A stretch of DNA of 64,000 bases, taken from NCBI RefSeq assembly GCF_014534685.1, contig NZ_JACVVX010000001.1:186001-250000 (forward strand), read 5' to 3'. Both the position numbers and the translations under genes were made by a program. Positions within the stretch are counted from its first letter, which is position 1. Every line of letters begins with the position of its first letter. This document shows positions 5,102 through 12,644 of the stretch, in pieces. Below the pieces are notes generated by a model. It had not been told where the DNA came from. It worked only from the letters and a program-made list of their open reading frames with translations, and did no database searches. This DNA comes from Oryzicola mucosus. Its GTDB lineage: Bacteria; Pseudomonadota; Alphaproteobacteria; Rhizobiales; Rhizobiaceae.

Positions 5102-6550
5102 TCACGCCGCCTTGTCCAGCGCGCGGCGGGACACGACGAGATCGTCGACGAACTTTTTGTATTCCGCCTCCTTGGCGTCTGCATCCGGCAAGCGCAGCAG
5201 ATAGGACGGATGCACGGTGATCAGCACCGGTGGGCCGCCCTGCCCCGCATCGAGCAGGCGGCCCCGGTTTTCGCCAATGGCCATCGCCTTGCCGAACAGT
5301 GACTGCGCAGCAGTCGCTCCCAGCGCCACGATCAGATCGGGCTGCACCACCTCGATCTCGCGTTCGAGCCAAGGCCGGCAGGCACGGATTTCCGGCATGG
5401 CGGGCTTCTGGTGGATACGCTTCTTGCCGCGCGGGACGAATTTGAAATGCTTGACCGCGTTGGTGACATAGGCGCGTGTGCGTTCAATGCCCGCGTCTTC
5501 AAGCGCACGGTCGAACATCCGGCCAGCCGGCCCGACGAAGGGACGGCCCTCCAGATCCTCGGTGTCGCCGGGCTGTTCGCCCACGAACATGATCGACGCC
5601 TCCGGCCTGCCTTCGCCGAAGACGGTCTGCGTGGCCGGCGCCCATAGCGGACAGGCGCGGCAGTGCGAGGCTTCCTCGCGCAAAGCCGCGATGGTGCCGC
5701 CCTCCGGCTTCGCGGCAGGCTTCGACGCGCTCAGCTTCTGGGGGCGTTCGTTGGCGTCTTTGGGCCCGGTGGCGACCATGGTGTCGGTCCTGCGCTGCGC
5801 ATCCTCGATGAGAGACCGAATGAGCGTGGCCTCTGGAAGGTTCCGCCAATATTTCACCGGCATCTCTGAGCGCATCATATCCACCTTCAACCGCGCCGGA
5901 TTGAAGATGCTGGCATAATAATCCCGCCAGAGATCCTCCAGCGCATCGTCGGCAGGCGCCTCGGTCCGTGAGGCGCCTGGCGAGAAGGCCAGGTCTTCGC
6001 CATCCCAATGCGCGCTCATGCTCGGGGTCAGGATCGACCAGTTCATCGTCGTGAAGCGACGTTTGAAGAAGGGCGCATTGGCCGCGACGATGTGATGTTC
6101 GGGCTCGAACCAGGCGACATACCACTCGCGGTCGTCGATGGCTGTCTTCCGAAACCGCACGAAGGCGCGCATCTTGTGGATGTCGCGGCGGATCGATTTC
6201 GCCATGGCTTCCAACCGGACCACATCGGGATCGACCGAGACCGTCAGCAGCCGCGGTTCCTTCCTCAGCCGCCACAGCATGGCATAGAGCCAAGAGAAGC
6301 GCTGCGGGTCGTTGTGCAGCACGACCTGCTTGGCCAGATCGACAAAACCGCGCGGCACCGATACGGGCTCGCCGGTATCCTTCGGCGTATCGTCCTGCGG
6401 CACGGCATGTGTAAACAGATCGCCCGCATCCTCTCCGACCGTCCAGACGACATCGGAAGGCGGGACGCCACGCGTCAGAAGGCGGCGCGCGGCATCGCGC
6501 CAACCCTCGAAATCGGTCTCGTCGGCAAGCCGGATGCGCAGCATCGTCAC
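5102..6550 (-). CDS. DUF4130-UdgX fusion (uracil-DNA binding/glycosylase-like protein)
   Basis: 482 codons with two parts. Residues 1 to about 250 are the DUF4130 domain that accompanies a radical SAM partner (contains YAMLWRLRKEPR and KMRAFVRFRK). Residues about 290-478 are a UdgX-type uracil-DNA glycosylase: GEQPGDTEDLEGRPFVGPAG at 324-343, GKKRIHQKP around 375-383 and HPSYLL at 447-452. The KRIH loop is the UdgX hallmark; its histidine (here H380) forms a covalent link to the abasic site after uracil removal in the characterised mycobacterial enzyme. Cysteines 297, 300 and 391 fit iron-sulfur ligands. The start overlaps the radical SAM stop by four bases, so the two are coupled. Role: capture or repair of uracil in DNA. 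Confidence 0.88.
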   Translation of the reverse strand: MTMLRIRLADETDFEGWRDAARRLLTRGVPPSDVVWTVGEDAGDLFTHAVPQDDTPKDTGEPVSVPRGFVDLAKQVVLHNDPQRFSWLYAMLWRLRKEPRLLTVSVDPDVVRLEAMAKSIRRDIHKMRAFVRFRKTAIDDREWYVAWFEPEHHIVAANAPFFKRRFTTMNWSILTPSMSAHWDGEDLAFSPGASRTEAPADDALEDLWRDYYASIFNPARLKVDMMRSEMPVKYWRNLPEATLIRSLIEDAQRRTDTMVATGPKDANERPQKLSASKPAAKPEGGTIAALREEASHCRACPLWAPATQTVFGEGRPEASIMFVGEQPGDTEDLEGRPFVGPAGRMFDRALEDAGIERTRAYVTNAVKHFKFVPRGKKRIHQKPAMPEIRACRPWLEREIEVVQPDLIVALGATAAQSLFGKAMAIGENRGRLLDAGQGGPPVLITVHPSYLLRLPDADAKEAEYKKFVDDLVVSRRALDKAA

Positions 6551-7755
6551 AGCAGCGACAGTTGCCTGGGCTGGGGCACGAGCCGCGCCTTGAGATCGGC
6601 CCGGTCGATCAGCCGGTGCGGCGTGTGGTCCGGAAAGATCAGAAACGGCAACACCTTCGCCACCAGCACGCGAAGCCGCGGAATGTCGTCGAGCCGGACC
6701 GCTCTCACCCGCCGTGCCGCAAGGATGCGGTCGACGGCGGTTTTGCCCAGGCCCGGCACGCGCAAAAGCTGGCTGCGGCTCGCCGTGTTGACATCGACCG
6801 GAAAACGGTCGCGATTGCGCAGCGCCCAGGCAAGCTTCGGGTCCATGTCGAGCGAGAGGTGACCAGTGTCCTGCGCCACGATCTCGCCGGCGTCGAAGCC
6901 ATAAAAGCGCATCAGCCAGTCAGCCTGATACAGCCGGTGCTCGCGCACCAAAGGCGGTGCCTGCGGCGGCAGGATGCGGCTTGCGTCCGGAATGGGGCTG
7001 AAGGCGGAGTAATAGACCCGCTTGAGCCGGTAGGAACTGTAGAGATTGGCACTGGTGGCAAGGATGGCGCGGTCATCCTCGGCGTCGGCGCCGACGATCA
7101 TCTGCGTGCTTTGGCCTGCCGGCGCAAAACGCGGTGCGCGCTTGTCGTCCTGTGCCTCATCGATCCGGTTGCGCATCCGCCCCATAGAGCGGCGAATGGC
7201 GCGCACATCCTTTTCCGGCGCAAGCGTTTTAAGGCTGGTTTCCGACGGAAGCTCGATGTTGATCGACAGTCGGTCGGCATATTTGCCCGCCTCGGCCATC
7301 AGTTCGTCGCTGGCGTCGGGAATGGTCTTGAGATGGATATAGCCCTTGAAGTCATGGGTCTGGCGCAGTTCGCGCGCCACCCGGACCACCTGCTCCATCG
7401 TGTAGTCGGGCGAGCGGATGATGCCCGACGACAGAAACAGCCCCTCGATATAGTTGCGGCGATAGAAATCGAGCGTCACCGACACCACTTCCTCAACTGT
7501 GAACCGGGCGCGCGGCACGTTGGACGATGCGCGATTGACGCAATAGAGGCAGTCGAAGGCGCAGGCGTTGGTCAGCAGGATTTTCAGCAGCGAGATGCAG
7601 CGCCCGTCCGGCGCATAGGAATGACAGATCGCGCCCTCGGTCGAGCCGATGCCCTTGCCGCCGAGCGAGTTGCGCTTGACCGTGCCGCTCGAGGCGCAGG
7701 ACGCGTCGTACTTGGCCGCGTCGGCGAGAATTTGCAGTTTTTTGGAAATGTCCAT
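6547..7755 (-). CDS. Putative DNA modification/repair radical SAM protein
   Basis: 402 residues from the ATG at 7755. I chose this start because MDISKKLQILADAAKYDASC is the usual beginning of the family; an in-frame ATG at 7851 would overlap the topoisomerase gene. The radical SAM cluster motif is CAFDCLYC (C65, C69, C72), preceded by further cysteines at 20, 44 and 53 that could bind another cluster. The C-terminus holds a helix-hairpin-helix DNA-binding motif (LLRVPGLGKTAVDRIL). The family is known to be linked genetically to DUF4130/uracil-glycosylase proteins, and here the downstream gene is exactly that, overlapping by ATGA. The chemistry it performs is unknown to me. An SOS box lies 12 bases upstream. 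Confidence 0.88.
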   Translation of the reverse strand: MDISKKLQILADAAKYDASCASSGTVKRNSLGGKGIGSTEGAICHSYAPDGRCISLLKILLTNACAFDCLYCVNRASSNVPRARFTVEEVVSVTLDFYRRNYIEGLFLSSGIIRSPDYTMEQVVRVARELRQTHDFKGYIHLKTIPDASDELMAEAGKYADRLSINIELPSETSLKTLAPEKDVRAIRRSMGRMRNRIDEAQDDKRAPRFAPAGQSTQMIVGADAEDDRAILATSANLYSSYRLKRVYYSAFSPIPDASRILPPQAPPLVREHRLYQADWLMRFYGFDAGEIVAQDTGHLSLDMDPKLAWALRNRDRFPVDVNTASRSQLLRVPGLGKTAVDRILAARRVRAVRLDDIPRLRVLVAKVLPFLIFPDHTPHRLIDRADLKARLVPQPRQLSLL

Positions 7756-7766
7756 GCCGCATAATT

Positions 7767-7781
7767 GTTCACTATTTGTTC
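7767..7781. promoter_or_regulatory. LexA (SOS) box, GTTC-N7-GTTC
   Basis: GTTC at 7767-7770, seven bases (ACTATTT), then GTTC at 7778-7781: an exact match to the alphaproteobacterial LexA operator. It lies in the 76-base gap between topoisomerase IB and the radical SAM gene, ending 12 bases before the chosen start codon, so LexA would block transcription of the radical SAM/UdgX pair until DNA damage. Confidence 0.72.
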
Positions 7782-7831: not shown

Positions 7832-8908
7832 TCATTCCTCGGAAAGCGCAATCAGCCATTTCAGCGTCATGCGCTCATCATCGTCCAGACGGGGTGCTGT
7901 AACGCGCACACTGCTGGCGGCCTTCACCTGGTCCGACAGGGTATTTTCGAGCCAGCTTTCGAAAACCTTGGGATGGATGTAGCAGCTTCGGCACACTGCC
8001 CGCGTGTTGCCGAGAAGGGCTGCCACCTTGTCGATCTCTGCGTTCAGCACCCGTTTCGCAGCCGTCTTCGTTTCCGGCAGTTCGGTACGCTGCAATCCGT
8101 CCAGCGCATAGACCGTGCCGCCCCACGTGCGGAAGTGCTTCGAGGTGAACGCAGCGCCCGTCGCCTCGCGGACATAGGCGTTGACGTCCTGCGATGTGAC
8201 CGGACGGCGAACGCCCTCATCGTCGACATATTGGAAAAGCTGTTGTCCGGGAAGCTCCTGCACCGAGCGGATGATGCGCGCAATCCGCCGGTCGGCGATG
8301 CCGACATTCCACTGCTTGCCGGACTTGCCGGTGAAGATGAACTTGATGCTGTTGCCTTCCGCCTTGACGTGCCGGTTGCGCAGCGTCGTCAAGCCGAAGC
8401 TCTTGTTGTCGCGGGCATAGGCGCTGTTGCCAATTCGGATCAGCATATTGTCCAGAAGCCAGACGACGGTGGCGGTCACCGTATCGCGGCCCAGGCCGCG
8501 CTTGCGCATATCCGCCTCCACCCGCTCCCGCAGCGGGCTCAGGGTACGCGCGAAATCGACGAGGCTGGAGAATTTCGTCTCGCCGCGGCACACGGTCCAC
8601 ATCGCATGATAGCGGTACTGCTTGCGGCCGCGCTCGTCCCTGCCGGTCGCCTGGATATGGCCCTTTTCATCCGTGCAGATCCAGACATCGGTCCAGGCTG
8701 GCGGAATGACGAGCGAGCGGATGCGCGCCATGTCCTTGTCCGATACGGCCTTCTTGCCCGGCGCCTCATATCTGAACCCGCGCCCTGACCGCAGACGGCG
8801 AATGCCGGGTTCCGTATCGGTGGAATGGTTGAGATCACCGACAGCACAGGCATCGGGCAGGATTTCCTGGAATTTTTTGGGAAGAGGTTTGGCGACTTTG
8901 TCCAGCAC
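7832..8908 (-). CDS. DNA topoisomerase IB (poxvirus type)
   Basis: 358 codons. It relaxes supercoils by nicking one strand through a 3'-phosphotyrosine. The catalytic set is visible: the RDERGRKQYRYH block (residues 90-101), the lysine in FTGKSGKQWN near 198, SKHFRTWGGT with H258/R260, and the nucleophile in CRSCYIHPKV (Y310). The small size matches bacterial homologues of the vaccinia enzyme. It is divergent from the ku/ligD genes and upstream of the radical SAM/UdgX pair on the same strand. An EcfG-like promoter ends 28 bases before its start, so it is probably stress-induced. Confidence 0.92.
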   Translation of the reverse strand: MLDKVAKPLPKKFQEILPDACAVGDLNHSTDTEPGIRRLRSGRGFRYEAPGKKAVSDKDMARIRSLVIPPAWTDVWICTDEKGHIQATGRDERGRKQYRYHAMWTVCRGETKFSSLVDFARTLSPLRERVEADMRKRGLGRDTVTATVVWLLDNMLIRIGNSAYARDNKSFGLTTLRNRHVKAEGNSIKFIFTGKSGKQWNVGIADRRIARIIRSVQELPGQQLFQYVDDEGVRRPVTSQDVNAYVREATGAAFTSKHFRTWGGTVYALDGLQRTELPETKTAAKRVLNAEIDKVAALLGNTRAVCRSCYIHPKVFESWLENTLSDQVKAASSVRVTAPRLDDDERMTLKWLIALSEE

Positions 8909-8936
8909 GACCGCGTTCCTGATGTCTCAAGCGCAG

Positions 8937-8961
8937 AACTGTTTCGAACCGTTGCGGTTCC
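8937..8961 (-). promoter_or_regulatory. EcfG-like promoter for topoisomerase IB
   Basis: On the minus strand GGAAC (8961-8957), a 16-base spacer, then AGTT (8940-8937). Only the first, least conserved base of the -10 differs from CGTT. The distance to the start codon at 8908 (28 bases) equals that of the promoter at 3784. It is back to back with the ku-operon promoter. Confidence 0.6.
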
Positions 8962-8963
8962 AT

Positions 8964-8988
8964 GGAACCGATGGCGAGCGCCAGCGTT
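8964..8988 (+). promoter_or_regulatory. EcfG promoter for the 73-aa gene, ku, ligD
   Basis: GGAAC at 8964-8968, 16 bases, CGTT at 8985-8988: exact consensus for the general stress sigma factor. It lies 48 bases before the first gene of the operon at 9037. Confidence 0.8.
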
Positions 8989-9036
8989 AAGCGGCGGTGT
9001 CCGCCGACACAACAAGCAGAAACAAAAGGCTGGAAC

Positions 9037-9258
9037 ATGGACCATCGCGACAGACTCATCCTCGCCCTTTCCGCGCTTGTGCGCGCCGAACGCGAAGCCC
9101 GGATCGCCCTTGAGGCGGCTATCTCCAGCGGAGAATTGTCCCCCGATACGGCAAAAGCCATGGACAATCCCGAGATCGTCCTCAACCAGGACGACATGAT
9201 CATGGCAGAGGAATTCGTGCGGCCCTATGCGCCAAGCAGCCGTCTGGGAATTTCCTGA
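9037..9258 (+). CDS. Small protein of unknown function, first gene of the ku operon
   Basis: 73 residues from ATG at 9037; an upstream in-frame ATG at 8962 would lie across the EcfG promoter and is unlikely. The product is acidic and helical (MDHRDRLILALSALVRAERE, then ALEAAISSGELSPDT), without signal peptide or membrane span. Its TGA shares a base with the ATG of ku (TGATG), so translation of ku depends on it. It has no cysteine or recognisable domain. Coupling to ku suggests a role with end-joining, but that is inference from context only. Confidence 0.7.
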   Translation: MDHRDRLILALSALVRAEREARIALEAAISSGELSPDTAKAMDNPEIVLNQDDMIMAEEFVRPYAPSSRLGIS

Positions 9259-10124
9259 TGGCCTCACGCCCGGCCTGGAAAGGTTACCTCAAGCTCTCGC
9301 TGGTGACCTGCGCGGTCGAACTGTCGAATGCCACCACCGGCAGCGAGAAGGTGTCGTTCCGGATTATCAACCGGGCGACCGGCAACACTGTCAAACGCAG
9401 ATATGTCGATGGAACCACGGGAAAGCCCGTGGCCGAAAAAGACGAAGTTAAAGGCTATGAGACGGGCAAGGACGAATTTCTGCTGATCGAGGAAGACGAG
9501 ATCGACGCGGTACAGATCGAATCGTCGCACACGCTGAGCCTCGACAGCTTTGTGGCTCGCTCGGAGATCGATCCGATCTATCTCGACACCCCTTATTATC
9601 TCGCTCCCGCCGACAAGGTTTCGGAGGAAGCGTTCGCCGTCATCCGTGAGGCGCTGGCGCAAAAGAAGATGGCCGGCCTCGCGCGGATCGTGCTGTTCCG
9701 CCGCGAACGCCCTGTCATCATCGAGCCGTTCGACAAGGGCATGCTGCTGACGACGCTGCGCTATGGCAGCACGGTGCGCCAGTCCGATGACGTTATGGAC
9801 GATGTCGCCCAAGCCAAGGTCGACAAGGAAATGCTCGATCTCGGAACCAAACTGATCGACAAGCGCAGGGGCAAGTTCGATCCAAAGACGTTCGAAGATC
9901 CCTATGAACAGGCCTTGCTCGACCTGATCAAATCCAAGAAGGCCGGTCGTAAGCCGCCTGTTGTCAAGGCGGCTTCGAAACCATCGAACGTCGTCAACTT
10001 GTTCGATGCGCTCAAGAAGAGCCTGGCCGAAGACAAGCCGGCGGCGGACGAGAAACCAGCGCCGAAGAAGAGTCCTGCAAAGAAGCCGGCTTCGAAATCT
10101 CCTTCCAAGCGCAAATCCGCGTAG
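9258..10124 (+). CDS. ku: Non-homologous end-joining protein Ku
   Basis: 288 codons. Bacterial Ku forms a homodimeric ring that binds DNA ends and recruits LigD. The Ku core is visible from WKGYLKLSLVTCAVEL through VSFRIINRATGNTVKRRYV, DPIYLDTPYYLAPAD and ARIVLFRRERPVIIEP. The C-terminal tail from about residue 230 is lysine/proline/alanine-rich (KPAPKKSPAKKPASK), typical of Ku extensions that modulate DNA binding. The start overlaps the stop of the preceding small gene by one base and ligD follows nine bases later, so the three form one operon under the EcfG promoter at 8964. Confidence 0.95.
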   Translation: MASRPAWKGYLKLSLVTCAVELSNATTGSEKVSFRIINRATGNTVKRRYVDGTTGKPVAEKDEVKGYETGKDEFLLIEEDEIDAVQIESSHTLSLDSFVARSEIDPIYLDTPYYLAPADKVSEEAFAVIREALAQKKMAGLARIVLFRRERPVIIEPFDKGMLLTTLRYGSTVRQSDDVMDDVAQAKVDKEMLDLGTKLIDKRRGKFDPKTFEDPYEQALLDLIKSKKAGRKPPVVKAASKPSNVVNLFDALKKSLAEDKPAADEKPAPKKSPAKKPASKSPSKRKSA

Positions 10125-10133
10125 GGGTACATC

Positions 10134-12644
10134 ATGGCGACGCTCGACACCTACCGGGCCAAGCGCGATTTCAAGAAGACGTCCGAACCATCGGGCGCCA
10201 AGGCCGCGGCCAAGCGCAAGGCCGGTTCGGAAGCCGGCATCTTCGTCATCCACAAGCACGATGCCACCCGGCTGCATTACGATTTGCGGCTCGAACATGA
10301 CGGCGTGCTGTGGAGTTGGGCGGTGACCCGGGGACCCAGCCTTGACCCGTCGGAAAAGCGGCTCGCGGTGCATGTCGAGGACCATCCGCTCGACTATGCC
10401 GGCTTCGAAGGCACTATTCCCCAGGGCGAGTATGGCGCCGGCACGGTCATCGTCTGGGACGAAGGCACCTGGGTGCCGGAGATCGACCCGGCGAAAGGCA
10501 TGGCGAAGGGACACCTGCAGTTCGAATTGAAGGGCAGCAAGCTCAACGGCGCGTGGCACCTGGTCCGACTCAAGCCTCGCGCCGGCGAAAAGCGCGACAA
10601 CTGGCTGTTGATCAAATCCGACGATGCCTTTGCCAAGCCCGGCGAGGACATTCTGGAGGAGGCGCCCGCCTCGGTGCAATCGGGCCGCACCATCGCCGAA
10701 GTTGCCGAGGGCAAGCCGGCCAAAGCCGGCAAGGCCAAATCAACGAAGCCGAAGAAGCAATCGGCCAAACCCTCGAAAGTCGCTGGGCTGCCGGACTTCA
10801 TCCCGCCCGCCCTGGCGACATTGCAGAAAACGCCGCCAACTGGCGGAGAATGGCTGCACGAGGTCAAGTTCGACGGCTATCGCCTGCAAGCCCATCTCGA
10901 TGCCGGAAAGGTGCGCCTGCTGACCCGAAAGGGTCTCGACTGGACGGAGAAGTTCGGCCAGACCATCGTCAAGGCGATTGACGGGCTCGACTGCGATAAC
11001 GCCATTCTCGATGGCGAGCTGGTGGCGCTCGACGACAATGGAACCGCTTCCTTTGCGCGGCTGCAAACGGCATTGTCGGACGGGAAGACCGACGAACTCG
11101 TCTTCTACGTCTTTGACCTGCTCCACCTCGACGGCGAGCCACTGCTGGACGAGCCGCTGGTCGAACGCAAGGAGCGGCTGCGCGCGTTGCTCGGCGACAT
11201 CGAACCCAACACCTCGCCGCTGCGCTACAGCGAACATTTCCATGAATCCGGCAAGACAATGCTGGTGCATGCCTGCCGCATGGGGCTGGAAGGCGTGATC
11301 TCCAAGCGCGCCGATGCGCCCTATCGAAGCGGACGCGGGCTGGACTGGATCAAGTCCAAATGCACCCTGCGGCAGGAGTTCATCCTTGCGGGCTATCTGC
11401 CGTCGGAAAAGACCGGGCGCGGCCTTCGCTCGCTGGCAGTGGCGTTTCGCGAAAAAGGCAAGCTGCATTATGCCGGCCGTGTCGGCACGGGTTTCAGCGC
11501 GCAGGTTGCCAACGACCTCAAAAATCGGCTGGACTCACTGAAGACGAAATCCTCGCCCTTCGACGAGAAGGTTCCCGACGACAAGCACATGGTCTGGGTC
11601 AAGCCGGAACTCGTCGCCGAGATCGAATTCCGCAGCTGGACCTCCGATCACATCGTGCGCCAGGCGTCGTTTCAGGGATTGCGCGAAGACAAGCCCGCCG
11701 AAGAGGTCGTCGAGGAAAAGCCCGCACCCGCCGATGCGACAAAGCAGAAAGCCGGGGCAAAAAAAACCTCCGAAGCCGCCTCCGCCGCCAAATTGTCTAC
11801 CAGCATCACGCTGTCCAATCCGCAAAAACTGCTGTGGCCCGAAGCAAAAAAGTCGAAGAGCGATTTGCTCGACCACTACGCTCAGGTCTGGCCGCGCATG
11901 GAGGCCTATGTCGTGAACCGGCCGCTCGCCTTAGTGCGCGCGCCTGACGGGATCGGCAAGCAGCAGTTCTTCCAGAAGCATGCCTCGCGTGGGATGGACG
12001 ATGCCATCTGCCGCATGAAGGACCCCAAAGACGGTGAGGAGCTGCTTTATATCGACAGTTTCGACGGTCTCGCGGCCCTCGTGCAGCTTGGCGTGGTCGA
12101 GGTGCACATCTGGGGCTCGACCATTGATGCAATCGAAACGCCCGACCAGGTCATTTTAGATATCGATCCTGATGAGGGTCTGAATAACACGCATGTGATC
12201 GACGCCGCCATCGATATCCAACAGCGCCTCGACGAACTCGGCCTGCCCTCGTTTCTCAAGACATCCGGCGGCAAGGGCTATCACGTCGTCGTCCCGCTGA
12301 AACCCAAGGCCGACTGGGTGGCGGTCAAAACCTTCGCGCATGACTTCGCCCATGCGATGGAGCAGGCCGAGCCTGACCTTTATACCGCGACCCTGTCGAA
12401 GAAATCCCGAAAGGGCCGCATCTTCATCGATTACCTTCGCAACGGACGCGGATCGACAACGGTATGCGCGTACTCATCGCGTGCAAAGCCGGTTGCATCG
12501 GTGTCGGTGCCGATTGCCTGGCCGGAGATAAAAACCTTCGAACCGGCCGCCTTCACGATGCGCAGCGAGCTTCTATCCAAGGCCCTTTCCGCCAAGGACC
12601 CTTGGAAGGACTATGAAGCCAGCCGAAAGCTTTTGCGGACATAG
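10134..12644 (+). CDS. ligD: DNA ligase D (phosphoesterase-ligase-polymerase)
   Basis: 836 codons with the three LigD modules in the order 3'-phosphoesterase, ligase, polymerase. The phosphoesterase spans about residues 30-190 (IFVIHKHDATRLHYDLRLEH, IPQGEYGAGTV). The ATP-dependent ligase spans about 215-530 with the adenylated lysine K245 in EVKFDGYR. The primase-like polymerase spans about 550-830, with LSNPQKLLWPE, the metal-binding DIDPDEG and SGGKGYHVVVPL. A lysine-rich linker separates each module. It seals double-strand breaks with Ku, filling gaps and cleaning ends. It is the last gene of the stress-promoter operon and converges on the hybrid kinase gene. Confidence 0.95.
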   Translation: MATLDTYRAKRDFKKTSEPSGAKAAAKRKAGSEAGIFVIHKHDATRLHYDLRLEHDGVLWSWAVTRGPSLDPSEKRLAVHVEDHPLDYAGFEGTIPQGEYGAGTVIVWDEGTWVPEIDPAKGMAKGHLQFELKGSKLNGAWHLVRLKPRAGEKRDNWLLIKSDDAFAKPGEDILEEAPASVQSGRTIAEVAEGKPAKAGKAKSTKPKKQSAKPSKVAGLPDFIPPALATLQKTPPTGGEWLHEVKFDGYRLQAHLDAGKVRLLTRKGLDWTEKFGQTIVKAIDGLDCDNAILDGELVALDDNGTASFARLQTALSDGKTDELVFYVFDLLHLDGEPLLDEPLVERKERLRALLGDIEPNTSPLRYSEHFHESGKTMLVHACRMGLEGVISKRADAPYRSGRGLDWIKSKCTLRQEFILAGYLPSEKTGRGLRSLAVAFREKGKLHYAGRVGTGFSAQVANDLKNRLDSLKTKSSPFDEKVPDDKHMVWVKPELVAEIEFRSWTSDHIVRQASFQGLREDKPAEEVVEEKPAPADATKQKAGAKKTSEAASAAKLSTSITLSNPQKLLWPEAKKSKSDLLDHYAQVWPRMEAYVVNRPLALVRAPDGIGKQQFFQKHASRGMDDAICRMKDPKDGEELLYIDSFDGLAALVQLGVVEVHIWGSTIDAIETPDQVILDIDPDEGLNNTHVIDAAIDIQQRLDELGLPSFLKTSGGKGYHVVVPLKPKADWVAVKTFAHDFAHAMEQAEPDLYTATLSKKSRKGRIFIDYLRNGRGSTTVCAYSSRAKPVASVSVPIAWPEIKTFEPAAFTMRSELLSKALSAKDPWKDYEASRKLLRT

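Follow-up and report, generated by a model that had tools for sequence, protein, structure and literature searches.

What controls the two sets of genes that diverge from positions 8937–8988 of the window (the whole 64,000-nucleotide stretch that was analysed), and are the two sets controlled together? The gene on the minus strand (7832–8908) encodes a 358-residue bacterial DNA topoisomerase IB (topo IB), with matches to the Pfam families Top1B_N_bact (7e-23) and Topoisom_I, the catalytic domain (4e-34). It begins with a GTG at 8908, and AGGAA at 8916–8920 lies 7 nt ahead of this codon. On the plus strand the first gene is an ORF of 73 aa that belongs to an unnamed Rhizobiaceae family (9037–9258). 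AAAAGG at 9024–9029 lies 7 nt ahead of its ATG at 9037, and its stop codon overlaps the start codon of ku (TGATG). The ku gene (9258–10124; TIGR02772, 1.6e-81) is followed by ligD (10134–12644; TIGR02776, 7e-215), for which domain models also identified the phosphoesterase, ligase and polymerase domains, and these two genes have the make-up of a bacterial NHEJ operon.

The original prediction placed two EcfG-type promoters here, 2 bp apart on opposite strands, one of them exact and the other with a single change in its -10 box, and each facing its gene at a sensible distance. Direct reading of the sequence agrees on all of these points. The plus-strand element, GGAAC-N16-CGTT (8964–8988; -35 box at 8964–8968, -10 box at 8985–8988), points toward the 73-aa ORF, ku and ligD, and it matches GGAAC-N16/17-CGTT exactly at promoter distance from its gene; the rhizobial EcfG consensus, from R. 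etli, is GGAAC-N16-CGTT (PMC3892343). The minus-strand element, GGAAC-N16-AGTT, runs from 8961 to 8937 toward topo IB (-35 box at 8961–8957, -10 box at 8940–8937) and agrees with this pattern in its -35 box and spacing, its -10 box being one base off. The gap between the two -35 boxes is only 2 bp (8962–8963), and together they make up a perfect 16-bp palindrome, CGGTTCCATGGAACCG (8955–8970). Without mismatches, the window holds a single copy of the complete divergent pattern, and shuffled versions of the window yielded 0.17 matches when up to three mismatches were allowed. Both promoters lie at workable distances from genes with Shine-Dalgarno-like sequences, and transcription would be expected to start near 8930 on the minus strand and near 8995 on the plus strand, going by the positions of the -10 boxes. 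No sigma-70-like site was found in 8800–9300. One detail of the prediction had to be amended: the plus-strand promoter, said to drive ku and ligD, does face in that direction, and the first gene that it meets is the 73-aa ORF rather than ku.

We propose that EcfG, and thus the alphaproteobacterial general stress response (GSR), uses this site as a divergent promoter pair, which would drive topo IB on one side and the 73-aa ORF, ku and ligD on the other. We put the probability of this reading at about 0.88; EcfG dependence and the start sites in this organism are inferred. The 4.9 Mb genome encodes PhyR, NepR and, adjoining NepR, an ECF sigma factor (EcfG), as the host of an EcfG regulon should. 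By pattern searches with GTTCC-N0-30-GGAAC and a downstream GTT, only two places in the genome matched in both directions: the 8937–8988 locus and the region between phyR and nepR-ecfG. The latter region likewise has back-to-back EcfG promoters in alphaproteobacteria, in this genome with the same two -10 types, AGTT and CGTT, but that pair drives the regulators themselves, and a gap of 7 bp rather than 2 separates its -35 boxes. The -10 box facing phyR is AGTT, as it is in several relatives, and the single change on the minus side of our locus is therefore one that the organism seems to employ for its own regulator. Across 200 Rhizobiaceae genomes the paired pattern gave 234 matches (the sum of the listed columns, with symmetric places counted on both strands) compared with 7 for a reversed control. 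Seventeen of the 30 family pairs that we sampled were at phyR/nepR, and one adjoined ku.

EcfG sites also recur upstream of the same genes in relatives. With the family site defined as GGAAC-N16/17-NGTT, dinucleotide shuffles as the control and kinship between genomes uncorrected, a site was present upstream of topo IB at 34 of 61 Rhizobiaceae loci (shuffle mean 0.38), upstream of ku at 29 of 53 (0.19) and upstream of the 73-aa ORF at 14 of 19 (0.09), a conservation of promoters that is expected of EcfG regulon members. LexA boxes were found upstream of none of 64 topo IB genes, 35 ku genes and 20 of the 73-aa ORFs, so that these genes do not have the hallmark of SOS control. The original prediction had suggested a search for both elements in orthologous divergent regions, and they were found in the sister species, in genomes G119 and G063, and in Aliihoeflea-type genomes. 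In G119 and G063, two EcfG sites lie between divergent topo IB and ku genes, with gaps of 21 and 23 bp between the -35 boxes; in Aliihoeflea and its close relatives the partner opposite topo IB is the 73-aa ORF, with gaps of 20–21 bp. An arrangement of topo IB opposite ku or the 73-aa ORF with paired EcfG sites thus occurs in at least three other lineages. Three further genomes (G014, G117 and G186) have topo IB, the 73-aa ORF, ku and ligD one after another in one orientation, and at least 12 of the 111 genomes with topo IB, from 8 genera, have it within 10 kb of ku. With the pairing repeated in several lineages of Rhizobiaceae, one can test whether topo IB and NHEJ have a joint role when cells are dormant or dried. 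EcfG control is not universal, because most Mesorhizobium topo IB genes had no match to the EcfG pattern. The remaining ku loci in the genome were scanned and showed no NGTT-type EcfG site. Among the Mesorhizobium topo IB genes (L073–L151), GGAAC is often followed about 17 nt later by CTTA in place of CGTT.

End joining is reportedly under stress control in S. meliloti, through RpoE2. Joint EcfG control of topo IB, which the original prediction took to be new, has already been published for Sphingomonas melonis Fr1, where both topo IB (#1831) and Ku (#1102) are EcfG-dependent by RNA-seq and likewise have upstream EcfG motifs (PMC6599016). The motif of #1831 lies 24 nt upstream and has a CATT-type -10 box, and the promoter of #1102 was confirmed with lacZ; for that organism the two genes are listed apart, each with a promoter of its own, whereas here they share one intergenic region (PMC6599016). 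Sphingopyxis granuli likewise has its NHEJ operon, ku-ligD, as a direct target within the GSR regulon (PMC7083833), and a search of that paper's main text found no topoisomerase named, unlike the locus described here. Heat induces ku and ligD genes in Mesorhizobium loti (PMC3989490). The claim of novelty for topo IB control falls, and the common divergent region is a new example of a known stress control. What the locus would add is a single site that ties the relaxation of DNA supercoils and NHEJ to one stress sigma factor.

The sister species, a genus-mate in Corticibacterium (G028, L003) whose topo IB matches at 93%, bears on what the palindrome is for. It retains both -35 and both -10 boxes, and the 2-bp gap is constant in the two Corticibacterium genomes, while about half of the plus-strand spacer and several bases of the minus-strand spacer have changed. 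Constant boxes with diverged spacers are what two functioning promoters would be expected to show. If the palindrome were instead an operator for a dimeric regulator such as LexA, the resemblance to EcfG sites would be secondary and the perfect 16-bp inverted repeat would be accounted for. The sister, however, keeps only the inner GTTCCATGGAAC of the repeat and has lost its outer bases, and it retains the two -10 boxes, which would be needless for an operator; in addition, no LexA box was found in 8850–9060, which spans the region between topo IB and the 73-aa ORF, whereas one precedes the radical SAM gene described below. We regard an operator as extremely improbable.

It could also be that only the promoter on the ku side is real, with the minus-strand match a by-product of the palindromic -35 boxes and topo IB transcribed from another promoter. 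The AGTT in place of CGTT would fit with this, as would the many Mesorhizobium topo IB genes that lack a matching site; part of the minus-strand spacer is conserved in the sister, too. Against it stand the AGTT that faces phyR both here and in several relatives, the excess of EcfG sites upstream of topo IB over shuffles (34 of 61 loci versus 0.38), and the topo IB gene of S. melonis, which depends on EcfG despite its CATT-type -10 box (PMC6599016). A lone ku-side promoter is in our view very unlikely. At the level of sequence, the divergent pair of EcfG-type elements at 8937–8988 is confirmed as real and conserved.

How such a pair would work can be sketched as follows. Stress would activate PhyR, which would sequester NepR, and EcfG-RNA polymerase could then act. 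The holoenzyme would recognise one or the other half of the near-palindrome and transcribe either to the left, through topo IB, or to the right, through the 73-aa ORF, ku and ligD. With the -35 boxes just 2 bp apart, simultaneous occupancy by two holoenzymes is unlikely, and every initiation would pick one direction; this mutual exclusion is what the geometry alone suggests. The topo IB and ku-side operons would rise together with the level of EcfG. Bidirectional promoters of E. coli, which are not an ECF sigma example, unlike the EcfG pair here, are reported to compete only if activity in one of the two directions is strong (PMC12825309). As a refinement of the divergent-pair reading, the 2-bp spacing might set how much topo IB is made relative to NHEJ proteins through polymerase competition, rather than reflect mere compact packing. 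This would agree with the constancy of the gap in both Corticibacterium genomes despite the drift of the spacers, and with an identical 2-bp arrangement at unrelated genes in another genome (G166, L264), but the same gene pair is found elsewhere with gaps of 20–23 bp, so that neither a short gap nor exclusion is needed for co-control. We consider a ratio-setting role rather unlikely.

Behind topo IB on the minus strand are a gene for a radical SAM repair-associated protein (rSAM; 6547–7755; TIGR03916, 2.9e-169), which we take to be COG4277, and a gene for a UdgX-family uracil-DNA-binding protein with a DUF4130 domain (5102–6550; TIGR03914, 1e-99; TIGR03915, 2e-68; also matched in Pfam). The rSAM gene probably starts with the ATG at 7755, and the longer ORF from 7851, which would begin inside topo IB, is unlikely to be used, since the sister has a stop codon within the added stretch and the profile match starts at about residue 35. 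Directly ahead of the probable start is a LexA-type box, GAACAAATAGTGAAC (7767–7781, minus strand), a GAAC/GTTC-N7 direct repeat of the same form as the operator upstream of lexA in this genome, GAACACACATGGAAC. A LexA-type box (GAAC-N7-GAAC) was present upstream of rSAM-UdgX at 30 of 30 Rhizobiaceae loci and in none of 30 in-gene controls, which marks these as SOS-type genes. We rejected the idea that rSAM-UdgX is generally an EcfG-driven operon: forward EcfG-like matches occurred at 2 of the 30 loci, neither of them well placed, compared with LexA boxes at all 30.

In Corticibacterium this SOS-type operon sits directly behind the GSR topo IB gene, which makes the locus a meeting point of GSR and SOS repair genes; among the rSAM loci examined, topo IB adjoined rSAM in none except those of the two Corticibacterium genomes. 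The rSAM-UdgX genes would respond to DNA damage through their own LexA-type operator, and GSR readthrough from topo IB may or may not reach them. That a UDG-based repair operon is under SOS control in Alphaproteobacteria has been reported before (cited in PMC8565304). As described there, the UDG/COG4277 operon likewise lies behind a LexA site, and its Corticibacterium version differs in its position behind a GSR gene. A degraded rSAM fragment is present near topo IB in G177.

What is most open about the locus is the 73-aa protein: it is small, conserved and encoded in the ku operon, and it has neither a name nor an annotation. Homologues are encoded in 22 of the 200 Rhizobiaceae genomes, and in 17 of these 22 ku is the next gene downstream in the same direction (about 340–360 bp away in two of them). 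Topo IB also adjoins the 73-aa ORF and ku in some genomes, and in G060 and G147 the ORF adjoins topo IB, with no ku within the stretch read. Beyond the Rhizobiaceae, in a sample of 385 genomes of the class, the family was found in one other genome, with a weak match. The N-terminal motif DxRDRLIlAL.A..kAER is nearly invariant, and searches of Pfam and NCBIfam gave no convincing match to the family. AlphaFold predicts a helical structure that includes a long helix at the N terminus, with a modest-confidence pTM of 0.44. Gene neighbourhood and shared control point to a possible role of the protein in end joining. We tentatively suggest, as a possibility somewhat short of even odds, that it is a third component of stress-induced end joining in Rhizobiaceae, driven by EcfG with Ku and LigD, in some genomes beside topo IB, and that it works at DNA ends together with one of these three proteins.

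Further EcfG sites were seen in the course of these searches. The GSR locus (L032:786–9217, G000:C3) has many of them within 9 kb, among other places before a gene for a Crp-type regulator and near a gene for an HWE histidine kinase. In G147, G060, G051, G104 and G133, the surroundings of the GSR locus hold two pairs of back-to-back EcfG sites, separated by about 3.3 kb. The pair in G166 (L264:1501–1552) is an independent one that shares the 2-bp gap and the GTTCCATGGAAC core; it lies about 1.7 kb from topo IB, between a 96-aa hypothetical ORF and a 232-aa ORF.
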